From a virus: a stretch of DNA of 55,977 bases. Of this stretch, positions 20,851 to 40,631 are shown in pieces (the stretch's first letter is position 1; each line of letters begins with the position of its first letter). Location: positions 1 through 55,977 of IMG/VR virus record IMGVR_UViG_3300021091_000089. The stretch is one strand, 5' to 3'. Position numbers and translations under genes: made by a program. The notes below the pieces were generated by a model. It ran no database searches and was not told the origin of the DNA. It was given only the letters and a program-made list of their open reading frames with translations.

Positions 20851-21006
20851 TTATTGTGCTGTTGATGCCAGCTTATCTAAGGCAGCTTCGTATCGTTTTA
20901 AAAGCTCCTCCTGATAACTTTTATGTAATTCATCAGTGGCTAGTATTTGCCAGCAAAAACGCGCAAATTCTTCGTCGGTTAACTGCGAAGGTTGAATGTA
21001 TTGCAT
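20851..21006 (-). CDS. Small acidic protein of unknown function (51 aa)
   Basis: ATG at 21006 follows GGAGA at good spacing and the frame ends at TAA 20851. The product is helical (LTDEEFARFCWQILATDELH) with no domain I recognise. Its start lies 28 bases inside the end of the upstream HTH gene and its stop is 15 bases before the primase-helicase start, so it fits the operon. It could be a small partner of either neighbour, which is only positional inference. Confidence 0.6.
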   Translation of the reverse strand: MQYIQPSQLTDEEFARFCWQILATDELHKSYQEELLKRYEAALDKLASTAQ

Positions 21007-29856: not shown

Positions 29857-30026
29857 TTCTCACCTCCTTCATTTACGATCACATCTTCAGCAGGCATCTC
29901 CACAGTCCAGAACTGATACTCACACTCCGGACACACCCGCCGCCGTTTGCTCCACCTTGGGTGCTCCTCGATCAATCTGGTCTCCTTCACCTTGGTGTAG
30001 TGGTGGTCACAGTTGGGGCAGTTCAT
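29853..30026 (-). CDS. Zinc-ribbon protein (57 aa)
   Basis: ATG 30026 follows GGAGG at 6 bases and the stop overlaps the next start (ATGA). The protein opens MNCPNCDHHY and has RRRVCPECEYQFW after a basic linker, giving two C-x2-C pairs (Cys3, Cys6, Cys32, Cys35) in the layout of an NrdR-type zinc ribbon. No ATP-cone follows, so it is a free ribbon that probably binds nucleic acid or a protein. Its start overlaps the MarR-like gene by 20 bases. Confidence 0.75.
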   Translation of the reverse strand: MNCPNCDHHYTKVKETRLIEEHPRWSKRRRVCPECEYQFWTVEMPAEDVIVNEGGEK

Positions 30027-38435: not shown

Positions 38436-38597
38436 TCACACCCCCTTCTTTCTAAGAACGACACACTCGGACTTGAACCGCGCCCACTCTTGCTTGCCAT
38501 CACTGGCTTTTGGGACAGGTTGTCCCAAAGATTGTTTACCTTCAAAAGGTTTTGTTTTTACTGCGCGTAACAGCACACACTGCTCTGGTTTTAACAT
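38436..38597 (-). CDS. Small protein spanning palindrome copy 1 (53 aa)
   Basis: ATG 38597 has AAGGAG seven bases upstream and the frame closes at TGA 38436, 1 base before the next start. The product MLKPEQCVLLRAVKTKPFEG continues KQSLGQPVPKASDGKQEWAR and ends basic. Residues LGQPVP are encoded by the first copy of the repeated palindrome, so the repeat is tolerated in a coding frame. No family is recognised. Confidence 0.5.
   Translation of the reverse strand: MLKPEQCVLLRAVKTKPFEGKQSLGQPVPKASDGKQEWARFKSECVVLRKKGV
38509..38529. repeat. Palindrome copy 1
   Basis: TTTGGGACA, spacer GGT, TGTCCCAAA: perfect 9-bp arms around 3 bases. It lies inside the 53-aa frame. Identical arms occur in four further copies within 2.1 kb. 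Confidence 0.9.
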
Positions 38598-38650
38598 GGT
38601 GACTCTCCTTCATTAGTGCGTAGTGCGTGGGTGTGCCGCACCCACAACGG

Positions 38651-38671
38651 TTTGGGACATGGTGTCCCAAA
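38651..38671. repeat. Palindrome copy 2
   Basis: TTTGGGACA, spacer TGG, TGTCCCAAA. It lies 7 bases beyond the end of the 38679-39281 gene and before the 53-aa gene. Confidence 0.9.
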
Positions 38672-38678
38672 ATCTTTC

Positions 38679-39281
38679 TCACATCTTGTAGTCAGAGGCC
38701 AGCATCTGGCGCCAATCTTTGGGCGGTTTCTTGCCCTTCTGTTTCAGCACGCTGATGATGTATCTGGCCTTGCGTATGTCTTCCCGTAAATTCGTTATGG
38801 CTAACTCAGTCATACCATGCGCACGATCCACACGCTTGGACAGTTTCATCAGTTCGTTTTGTATTCGGGCGTAGTCATCGGCGAACAGCTTGCGCCTTGT
38901 CTTACGGATAACTTCTTTGTGAGTAGTGGTGGCACGCTGTTTTCGTTTGGCGATCTTGACCTCAACAACGAAGTCGTGCACACCCTCGGCACGCAGTCGG
39001 CGACGCATTTGCTCACGGGTTAGATCTTCAGGGCGCTTGGTTTTGGCGTCGTGACAGTCGTTGCACTCCTTGCCTTCGTACTGAAGTCGGCGTTGAGCGA
39101 GAGGGTTGTGTAGCCAAGCGCGAGTCTGAGCCAAAGACGCAAGGCGTTTGAAATGGCTCAAAGATTTTAATTGCAGACAGCTTGAACACCACGCCCCGTC
39201 TGGCTTTGAAGGCAAAGCAAGTGCGTAATCATGGGTGTAATCGGGGTCGGAAGTGTCCAGTAAAAATTTCCAAGTGGACAT
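38679..39281 (-). CDS. Early protein with four-Cys zinc site and coiled tail
   Basis: ATG 39281 follows GAGGAG. A TTG start 18 bases upstream is weaker. The 200-aa product has Cys32, Cys35, Cys73 and Cys76 (AWCSSCLQL and GKECNDCHDA), a zinc-bound fold similar to the treble clef of HNH proteins but without the HNH catalytic residues that I can see. It then has a strongly basic region (KIAKRKQRATTTHKEVIRKT) and a coiled C-terminus. It may bind DNA near the repeat-rich region that begins at its own 5' end, where GTGTCCA elements overlap its first codons. Confidence 0.65.
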   Translation of the reverse strand: MSTWKFLLDTSDPDYTHDYALALPSKPDGAWCSSCLQLKSLSHFKRLASLAQTRAWLHNPLAQRRLQYEGKECNDCHDAKTKRPEDLTREQMRRRLRAEGVHDFVVEVKIAKRKQRATTTHKEVIRKTRRKLFADDYARIQNELMKLSKRVDRAHGMTELAITNLREDIRKARYIISVLKQKGKKPPKDWRQMLASDYKM

Positions 39282-39555
39282 GAAGTGGACTCTCCTCAAA
39301 GGTTAGTGGAAGACGCTTGCGAGCGGGTGCGTCACAGGTATCATACCAAAAAAAAGAAAGGGCAAAGGAAAAGAACAAAGAAGGCCAAAAAAGAAAAAAG
39401 AGTGTCCACTTGTCTAGCCCCCTATAATAATAATAATATAAATATAAATATATTATTATAGATGTGCCTCAAAGTGGACAGCGCTAGCACTGGCGCGGGT
39501 TCGGGGGTGTCCATGTCGTGTCCACTACGCGCCAAAAGTGGGAAGTGCTGGACAC
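39253..39555. repeat. Cluster of GTGTCCA/TGGACAC iteron-like repeats
   Basis: Copies of GTGTCCA or its complement (partly extended to GTGTCCACT) are seen at 39253, 39274, 39285 (short TGGAC form), 39402, 39474, 39507, 39518 and 39549, on both strands. They flank an all-A/T inverted repeat. The segment 39282-39623 holds no supported gene, so it is free to act as an origin or control region. The exact repeat unit is my reading of the sequence. Confidence 0.6.
39422..39461. repeat. 40-bp A/T inverted repeat (candidate unwinding element)
   Basis: CTATAATAATA and its reverse complement TATTATTATAG close the two ends (11-bp arms), and the 38 bases between the outer C and G are all A or T. It sits at the centre of the GTGTCCA repeats. 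Easily melted palindromes beside iterons are hallmarks of replication origins. A terminator or promoter role is also possible. Confidence 0.6.
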
Positions 39556-39600
39556 GACCTGTTTTTACCCTAGTTACTACAAAGAAGTTATGCGTAAGGT

Positions 39601-39621
39601 TTTGGGACAAGCTGTCCCAAA
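39601..39621. repeat. Palindrome copy 3
   Basis: TTTGGGACA, spacer AGC, TGTCCCAAA. It begins 2 bases downstream of the stop codon of the 50-aa basic gene. Confidence 0.9.
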
Positions 39622-39623
39622 GA

Positions 39624-39776
39624 TTAAGCGTCCTTTCCAAGGCGTAGTTCAAGGCCTGACTTCCACTCGCGGGTTTGGGATTGCTCGCGCTTGAAGCGTA
39701 GCTCGCCTGCGTGGTGGCGTGGCTTGGGCGTGGTCTTGGGTGTGTGCTGGCGTTGGTCTTTGCGTGTCTTTGACAT
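39624..39776 (-). CDS. Small basic protein (50 aa)
   Basis: ATG 39776 follows AGGAG and the frame ends at TAA 39624. The product (MSKTRKDQRQHTPKTTPKPR, then HHAGELRFKREQSQTREWKS) is Lys/Arg/Gln-rich with no hydrophobic core, typical of small nucleic-acid binders. It ends 2 bases before palindrome copy 3. Confidence 0.55.
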   Translation of the reverse strand: MSKTRKDQRQHTPKTTPKPRHHAGELRFKREQSQTREWKSGLELRLGKDA

Positions 39777-39785
39777 GGTGTTCTC

Positions 39786-39854
39786 CTAGTAGAAAAGAAA
39801 GTAAAGGCCAAGCCCAACTGCGCTGGGGATAATGAACAAAAGGCTGGCTTGCAT
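39786..39854 (-). CDS. Membrane microprotein (22 aa)
   Basis: ATG 39854 has GGGAG at 8 bases. The product MQASLLFIIPSAVGLGLYFL ends in FY and is one hydrophobic span. Its stop TAG is part of the ribosome site (TAGGAG) of the next gene, implying coupling. The third short membrane peptide of this block. Function unknown. Confidence 0.5.
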   Translation of the reverse strand: MQASLLFIIPSAVGLGLYFLFY

Positions 39855-39856
39855 TG

Positions 39857-40054
39857 TTAGTCTCCCATGCACTCAAAGTATTGGTCGATGACATCCTCAA
39901 GCTCAAAGTCTTTTGTCGCCTCTTGGATGTTGCACGCATCGCTGTCTTGAAACCACAGGCTTTCGCCTGTCTCTTGGTCTGTTATTTCATAAGCCCAGCC
40001 GTTGCCGTGCGATGTAATGAGGTAACGCCTGTTGGGTGTGTTGAATGACATCAT
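39857..40054 (-). CDS. Small protein of unknown function (65 aa)
   Basis: AGGAG precedes two adjacent ATGs (40054 and 40051). The product is Tyr/Trp-rich beta at the start (RRYLITSHGNGWAYEITDQE) and acidic at the end (FELEDVIDQYFECMGD). It may be an acidic partner or DNA mimic, though net acidity is moderate. It sits just beyond the terminator of the first early gene, so read-through or a further promoter is needed. Confidence 0.65.
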   Translation of the reverse strand: MMSFNTPNRRYLITSHGNGWAYEITDQETGESLWFQDSDACNIQEATKDFELEDVIDQYFECMGD

Positions 40055-40071
40055 GGTGATTCTCCTAGTAG

Positions 40072-40099
40072 AAAAAAAAAAAAGGGCGCCGAAGCGCCC
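40072..40099 (-). terminator. Strong intrinsic terminator after the first early gene
   Basis: On the minus strand GGGCGC-TTCG-GCGCCC is followed by 12 T residues (plus-strand A-run 40072-40083). It stands between the 40128-40532 gene and the rest of the leftward block, immediately past palindrome copy 4. Full block transcription would need escape from this site. Confidence 0.9.
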
Positions 40100-40105
40100 G
40101 CGGGG

Positions 40106-40126
40106 TTTGGGACAAGCTGTCCCAAA
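40106..40126. repeat. Palindrome copy 4
   Basis: TTTGGGACA, spacer AGC, TGTCCCAAA. It starts 1 base after the stop of the 40128-40532 gene and leads into the T-run terminator. Confidence 0.9.
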
Positions 40127-40127
40127 A

Positions 40128-40532
40128 TTAAGCGCGACCGATATACTTCAGGAAGCGCTGAAGGTCAGCCTTGGACAGCTTGAGAGCGGCGTCACCGAGC
40201 TTCTGCCATTCGGCCTTGGGTTCGGCCTTGGTGCGTGAACCCCCGCGAGCGTCTTTCTTGATATCGTGGAACTTGGCAATGCACCGATTCCACTGCCTCT
40301 GTGCGCCCTCGTGCTTATTGGCAGATATGGCCTCCTCACTGGTGTAGAACTTCCAGCCAGACTCCTGCAGGACAAAGAAAGCCCCGTACTTGTCGGCGTG
40401 AACCTCTGCAAGTTCTGCAATGAGTGAACCCGCGAGAAAGCCCCCGCGTAGACTCTTAGCCACCTCTTTGTCAAGCTCCAAAGAGGTTTGTACCAAGGTT
40501 GCGTACAACGAAACAATAGTAGCGTTCGACAT
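40128..40532 (-). CDS. First gene of leftward block, unknown function (134 aa)
   Basis: ATG 40532 follows AGGAG at 8 bases. Residues 1-50 are helical (IVSLYATLVQTSLELDKEVA), the middle has KYGAFFVLQESGWKFYTSEE, and the C-terminal 45 residues are Lys/Arg-rich (KKDARGGSRTKAEPKAEW). It is nearest to the control region, so it is probably the first protein made on infection. It is bracketed by palindrome copies 4 and 5 and followed by a terminator, so it could be expressed alone. No family is recognised. Confidence 0.75.
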   Translation of the reverse strand: MSNATIVSLYATLVQTSLELDKEVAKSLRGGFLAGSLIAELAEVHADKYGAFFVLQESGWKFYTSEEAISANKHEGAQRQWNRCIAKFHDIKKDARGGSRTKAEPKAEWQKLGDAALKLSKADLQRFLKYIGRA

Positions 40533-40552
40533 AAGTAGTTCTCCTTAAGATC

Positions 40553-40573
40553 TTTGGGACAGGTTGTCCCAAA
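40553..40573. repeat. Palindrome copy 5
   Basis: TTTGGGACA, spacer GGT, TGTCCCAAA. It lies in the 5' leader of the first leftward gene, between the candidate promoter and the ribosome site. This is where an operator or RNA hairpin would affect expression. Confidence 0.9.
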
Positions 40574-40622: not shown

Positions 40623-40631
40623 ATTATAACA
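40623..40631 (-). promoter_or_regulatory. Extended -10 promoter for the leftward block
   Basis: On the minus strand TG-T-TATAAT is a perfect extended -10 element. No good -35 is seen at 17 bases. Transcription would start near 40615 and run through palindrome copy 5 into the 40532 gene. Confidence 0.6.

Follow-up and report, generated by a model that had tools for sequence, protein, structure and literature searches.

The early region of an uncultured phage raises the question of what function is served by a palindrome that is repeated there five times. We analyzed the entire virus record, 55,977 bases in length and hereafter called the window, in which TTTGGGACA-N3-TGTCCCAAA occurs with perfect arms at positions 38509, 38651, 39601, 40106 and 40553. 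All five copies lie within the early region, and all are perfectly symmetric rather than asymmetric and biased in orientation. No further match was found in the window at up to 3 mismatches (0.03 expected from dinucleotide shuffles), a search of the whole record at 2 mismatches returned the same five copies, and no other perfect 9-3-9 palindrome, whatever its sequence, is present in the window. The preliminary description of five such palindromes, noticed nowhere else in the window, is thus borne out, as is the gene context that it gave: three sites 1-7 nt past stop codons, one in a leader and one within a gene.

Early genes run leftward from ~40.6 kb, and those for TerS, TerL and the portal run rightward from 41.0 kb. 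The first early gene, F1 (40128..40532, minus strand), encodes a 134-aa protein that we propose to be a DNA-binding regulator. It is preceded by a predicted early promoter with an extended -10 element (TGTTATAAT; 40623..40631, minus strand) and is flanked by the sites at 40553 and 40106. Palindrome 1 (40553..40573), a proposed operator, lies in the F1 5' leader, at ~+43 to +63 from the predicted transcription start and just upstream of the Shine-Dalgarno sequence. Palindrome 2 (40106..40126) is situated 1 nt past the F1 stop codon, directly before an intrinsic terminator made up of GGGCGC-TTCG-GCGCCC and a T-run (40072..40099, minus strand). Palindrome 3 (39601..39621) follows the stop codon of a 50-aa early gene (39624..39776, minus strand) by 2 nt, palindrome 4 (38651..38671) follows that of the gene for F2, a 206-aa early protein (38679..39299, minus strand), by 7 nt, and palindrome 5 (38509..38529) is located within a 53-aa early gene (38436..38597, minus strand); both of these small genes are conserved in relatives. 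At the equivalents of palindrome 5 in three relatives (G004, G006 and G014) the same neighboring sequence is kept, and in G014 the codons of the 53-aa gene follow the changed motif. Elsewhere in the window, between 30331 and 35315, genes for a DUF3150 protein, a DUF2201 metallopeptidase/VWA protein, an AAA protein and a Peptidase_M28-like protein are clustered, forming a phage-encoded VWA/AAA set.

Lineage-specific palindromes in related phages

Relatives with the same arms, both close and more distant, carry 3-6 exact copies in the same places with differing 3-bp centers, and records of the phage family contain zero extra copies with 1-3 mismatches. Phages with other arms were found via TerL (72-100% identity). 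Repeated palindromes are present at the same positions in ~35 related phages, with arms and spacer varying by lineage, and arms with exactly TTTGGGACA are only one of many versions. Lineage by lineage, the same early region holds TGCGACA-3, GTTGACA-3, GCAGACA-3, GCGGACA-3, GCTGACA-3 or GGGGACA-3, and further palindromes include GGGTCAC-1, GATTCAG-1, GTGGAG-5, GTGGAGA-2, GGACGGA-2, GGGGTAG-4 and more. For longer relatives, the lineage's own palindrome family is the main repeated palindrome of the record. Since each lineage has its own repeated palindromes at constant distances from TerL (~1.0, 1.5, 2.0, 3.0 and sometimes 4.3 kb upstream), we regard the palindrome as a site that keeps its positions but differs in sequence between lineages. 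F1 is the first early gene, and in 22 of 29 phages one site lies near its start and another 0-20 nt after its stop codon; in most relatives a palindrome is found at or near the F2 stop codon. Absence of the element from equivalent places in close relatives had been named at the outset as a finding that would speak against it; the same arms are indeed missing in some close relatives, but another palindrome occupies each place. In one phage (L163) the early region carries TTTGCTACA-N2-TGTTGCAAA four times in one orientation, with a fixed one-base asymmetry, and such an imperfect, single-orientation site was found in this phage alone.

The cultured cyanophage Planktothrix phage Pag-Yong1 (TerL, 47%) carries GGTTCAG-N-CTGAACC or a close variant of it 17 times, across early and late genes. 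Ten of the 17 lie no more than 12 nt from an annotated stop codon, compared with 0.6 expected (binomial P ~3e-11). Its first early gene sits between two sites and is the top match of four F1 profiles (types A, B, C and E; E-values of 3e-5 to 2e-3), and the product of this gene is probably an F1 homolog. Palindromes are also found directly at late-gene stop codons in this phage, the terminase gene among them (L280, 21410 and 35260), so its late genes may be controlled via palindromes as well. No repeated palindrome was found in the stretches covered of the cultured relatives HTVC027P, HTVC023P, DSL-LC04 and 023Pt_psg01.

The F1 N-terminal domain and the type of palindrome

Two early protein families, F1 and F2, are near-universal among these phages. 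The C-terminal region of F1 recombines freely, and its N-terminal domain sorts into types that match the motif classes. Among 31 phages the F1 N-domain, whose types were drawn up after the motifs had been seen, predicts a shared motif with an AUC of 0.943, compared with 0.870 for F2, 0.878 for TerL and 0.595 for the F1 C-terminus (partial Mantel test for the F1 N-domain versus motif, P = 0.001). F2 and TerL likewise correlate with the motif because close relatives share everything. Given that the F1 types were defined with the motifs known, a held-out test and phage pairs in which the linkage is decoupled outweigh the AUC.

In one such pair, L211 and L214, TerL and its neighbors are 97-100% identical, yet the F1 N-domain and the palindromes differ (TerL 1.00, F1 C-terminus 0.56, F1 N-domain 0.04), and at one distal site only the palindrome has been replaced, with near-identical flanks. 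The motif has also changed between G016 and L169 (C-terminus 0.83, N-domain 0.07), and it is the same in G016 and L164 (N-domain 0.76, C-terminus 0.22, F2 0.24) as well as in L006 and G004 (N-domain 0.91, C-terminus 0.11). The decoupled pairs side with the F1 N-domain. They also bear on the idea that F2, or some other phage protein, is the binder and that F1 co-varies through linkage only. The near-universal presence of F2, the site at or near its stop codon and its own correlation with the motif are in keeping with this idea. However, similar F2 proteins accompany different motifs in L211/L214 (F2 0.78) and G021/L188 (0.63), and dissimilar ones accompany the same motif in the window (WIN) and L006 (0.24) and in L225/L187 (0.12), the F1 N-domain tracking the motif in each case, which makes this idea improbable. 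We rejected F2 as the determinant, as it is weaker than F1 and contradicted by the decoupled pairs.

In the held-out test, 12 loci gave a usable signal, and in 10 of these the best score went to the predicted class; some of these loci came from close relatives of training members. The wrong class scored best in L203 and L217, and no clear site was found in L181, L186, L224 and L229. A further exception is L204, which groups with type A but carries GTGAGAC-5, and no F1 turned up in G023 or L171.

The suggestion in the preliminary description that the palindromes are operators gains support from the tracking of the motif by the F1 N-domain, but the two regulators that it put forward, the products of the genes at 20979 and 30007, do not. 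The HTH protein at 20979, encoded by one of the conserved genes of the replication region, was rejected as the binder, its recognition helix (SRQTVYNW) being unchanged in phages with different palindromes; in G021 and G024, for example, this protein is nearly the same and the motifs are different. The PadR-like protein at 30007 was rejected as it is missing from most relatives.

F1 proteins are basic, with a pI mostly of 9-10. An AlphaFold model of the window F1 (mean pLDDT 85.7) consists of an N-domain (residues ~1-90) with two helices, a beta hairpin and a further helix, followed by a linker and a C-domain of two helices. The model of a type B F1 (L211; 80.6) has nearly the same order of elements with the first helix split, the two models not being fully independent as their alignments share members. 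Foldseek searches gave no significant PDB match with either model and no significant BFVD match with the window model. Sequence searches of Pfam, PHROGs and PDB sequences returned no match of weight and no recognizable DNA-binding domain.

Probable DNA half-sites and a candidate repressor

Are the palindromes read as DNA or as RNA? Their two arms change independently: deviations from the consensus were one-sided in 66 cases and compensated in 5, G:U was no commoner than A:C, and of 10 sites with AACTSGCAGACA half-sites only 3 have the S position paired. Moreover, in L214, L233, L227 and L205, site 1 lies upstream of the predicted (unmapped) early promoter. Thus neither property expected of an RNA element, pairing that is kept when an arm changes and transcription of every copy, was found, the latter with promoters as predicted. 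Because the changes are one-sided, site 1 can be upstream of the promoter and palindrome 5 is intragenic with codons that change in G014, we favor DNA half-sites over an RNA hairpin.

The preliminary description had also proposed hairpins for RNA processing or stability and, for want of T-runs, had set the palindromes apart from ordinary terminators. The latter point requires correction, since a separate intrinsic terminator follows the palindrome at 40106 and, in six relatives (G019, G020, G024, L214, L233 and L212), site 2 is itself a hairpin with a T-run. Leader terminators are common among relatives, and in several of them a terminator lies on each side of F1. An intrinsic terminator was observed between the early promoter and F1 in the F1 leaders of G016, L164, G019, G020, G022, L211, L214, L225, G018 and L183, which suggests that the early operon as a whole is subject to attenuation or antitermination. 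Given sites that also serve as terminator hairpins and the frequency of leader terminators, the palindromes may affect termination. These terminators, together with the location of sites at early-mRNA 3' ends and in leaders and the difference in spacer length between lineages, would fit transcribed palindromes that act as RNA hairpins in processing, stability or antitermination and are recognized by F1 or a host nuclease. Nonetheless, the pairing is not maintained, some sites precede the predicted promoter, and cleavage at the intragenic palindrome 5 would destroy the message, leaving this explanation with little probability. No match to the palindrome was found in Rfam.

We consider it likely, if well short of certain, that the palindromes are operators of F1. 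From sequence and position we infer binding, dimerization, repression, roadblock and immunity for this protein. An F1 dimer would probably bind each site, with each N-domain reading one TTTGGGACA half-site and the 3-bp center remaining unread. Binding to the leader site would lead to autorepression, and the sites at the ends of or inside downstream early genes would serve for further repression or as elongation roadblocks, such that accumulation of F1 would shut down the early operon. A superinfecting phage of the same specificity would be silenced by F1 as well, and among related phages swapping or divergence of the N-domain is matched by replacement of the operators. F1 is best read as a repressor or roadblock that is subject to its own control and acts through dispersed operators, which are comparable to stoperators, F1 itself being of a different protein family. 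That F1 instead uses these sites to activate or antiterminate early transcription is rather unlikely. The terminators on either side of F1 in several phages are consistent with such a role, as is the activator-like location of site 1 upstream of the promoter in type C phages, L205 and L214. However, in the window and its type A relatives the predicted promoter precedes site 1, most sites are at gene ends and better suited to roadblocks, and the stoperators of cluster A mycobacteriophages provide a direct precedent for repression from positions of this kind (PMC6550527).

Repression by F1 may act in early shut-off and superinfection exclusion rather than in lysogeny, since nine records yielded neither a tyrosine integrase nor a resolvase, although extrachromosomal prophages remain conceivable. 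A broader and more tentative proposal is that F1 makes up a new regulator family that binds DNA sequence-specifically and has a fold absent from the PDB, and that integrase-less phages swap its N-domain and replace all dispersed operators in concert, giving immunity-like specificity (superinfection exclusion or early shut-off) outside lysogeny. The best-documented cases of dispersed operators that change along with the regulator of the phage come from temperate actinobacteriophages. Here, uncultured phages and a single cultured cyanophage follow the same logic, no integrase being detectable and the protein family having no known fold. L211 and L214 are a natural before-and-after pair that makes the replacement of a whole operator set together with its regulator directly testable, and the many protein-site pairs on offer may help in working out a DNA-recognition code.

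A close likeness is to cluster A mycobacteriophages, such as L5 and Bxb1, in which the repressors act by blocking elongation at stoperator sites (PMC6550527, PMC9283540). There, as here, each genome has many copies of a lineage-specific site, mostly outside promoters (PMC6550527, PMC9283540), and from one related phage to another the site consensus shifts along with the regulator. The two systems differ in that stoperators are asymmetric 13-mers mostly in one orientation, whereas the sites here are symmetric with a free center. In addition, the cluster A repressor is monomeric with two DNA-binding domains including an HTH, unlike the proposed regulator, the product of the first early gene, which lacks a detectable HTH. 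Cluster A phages are also temperate, whereas no integrase was found here. The small regulator C.Kpn2I similarly limits its own gene through an elongation block inside the transcribed region, but is a restriction-modification controller acting at a single locus and is unrelated to F1 (PMC6237814). Comparison of F1 with cluster A repressors (HTH and stoperator domain) by Pfam, PHROGs, PDB sequence and Foldseek gave no match.

Repeated palindromes are also found in F plasmid sopC and other ParB-type sites, with a half-site, TGGGAC, that resembles TTTGGGACA. In these phages, by contrast, no ParB was detected among 20 window proteins scanned with Pfam, and conserved positions with switching sequences are unlike a centromere. 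That the palindromes are mobile, REP-like hairpins or parS-like partition sites, the first of which had been raised in the preliminary description, draws on the occurrence of the same 18 bases in many clostridial mobile-element contexts, four of them inside ParB_N genes. It is highly improbable, as positions in the phages are conserved rather than varying while sequences change in concert, ParB, resolvase and tyrosine integrase were not found in the proteins and records searched, and searches of the clostridial loci with F1 profiles gave no significant match. The clostridial elements were rejected as the same system on this last ground, no F1 homolog being found there by profile search. Searches of the literature for the literal palindrome sequence returned unrelated matches only.

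The same 18 fixed bases are present in more than 100 clostridial genome stretches (L020-L138), mostly mobile elements of gut Lachnospiraceae and Oscillospiraceae, where the centers are A/T-rich and the outer pair is usually C..G. The palindrome is inside a ParB_N gene in L063, L069, L099 and L132, and other copies adjoin relaxase, DarA_C and adenine methylase genes. Outer stems are slightly complementary in the clostridial elements and not at all in the phages. Finally, in a phage with an unrelated terminase (G005, L254-L256), TTTGGGACATCATGTCCCAAA or its reverse occurs four times together with one near copy, and the gene between two of these sites (1344-1892) bears a marginal resemblance to the type A F1 helix.
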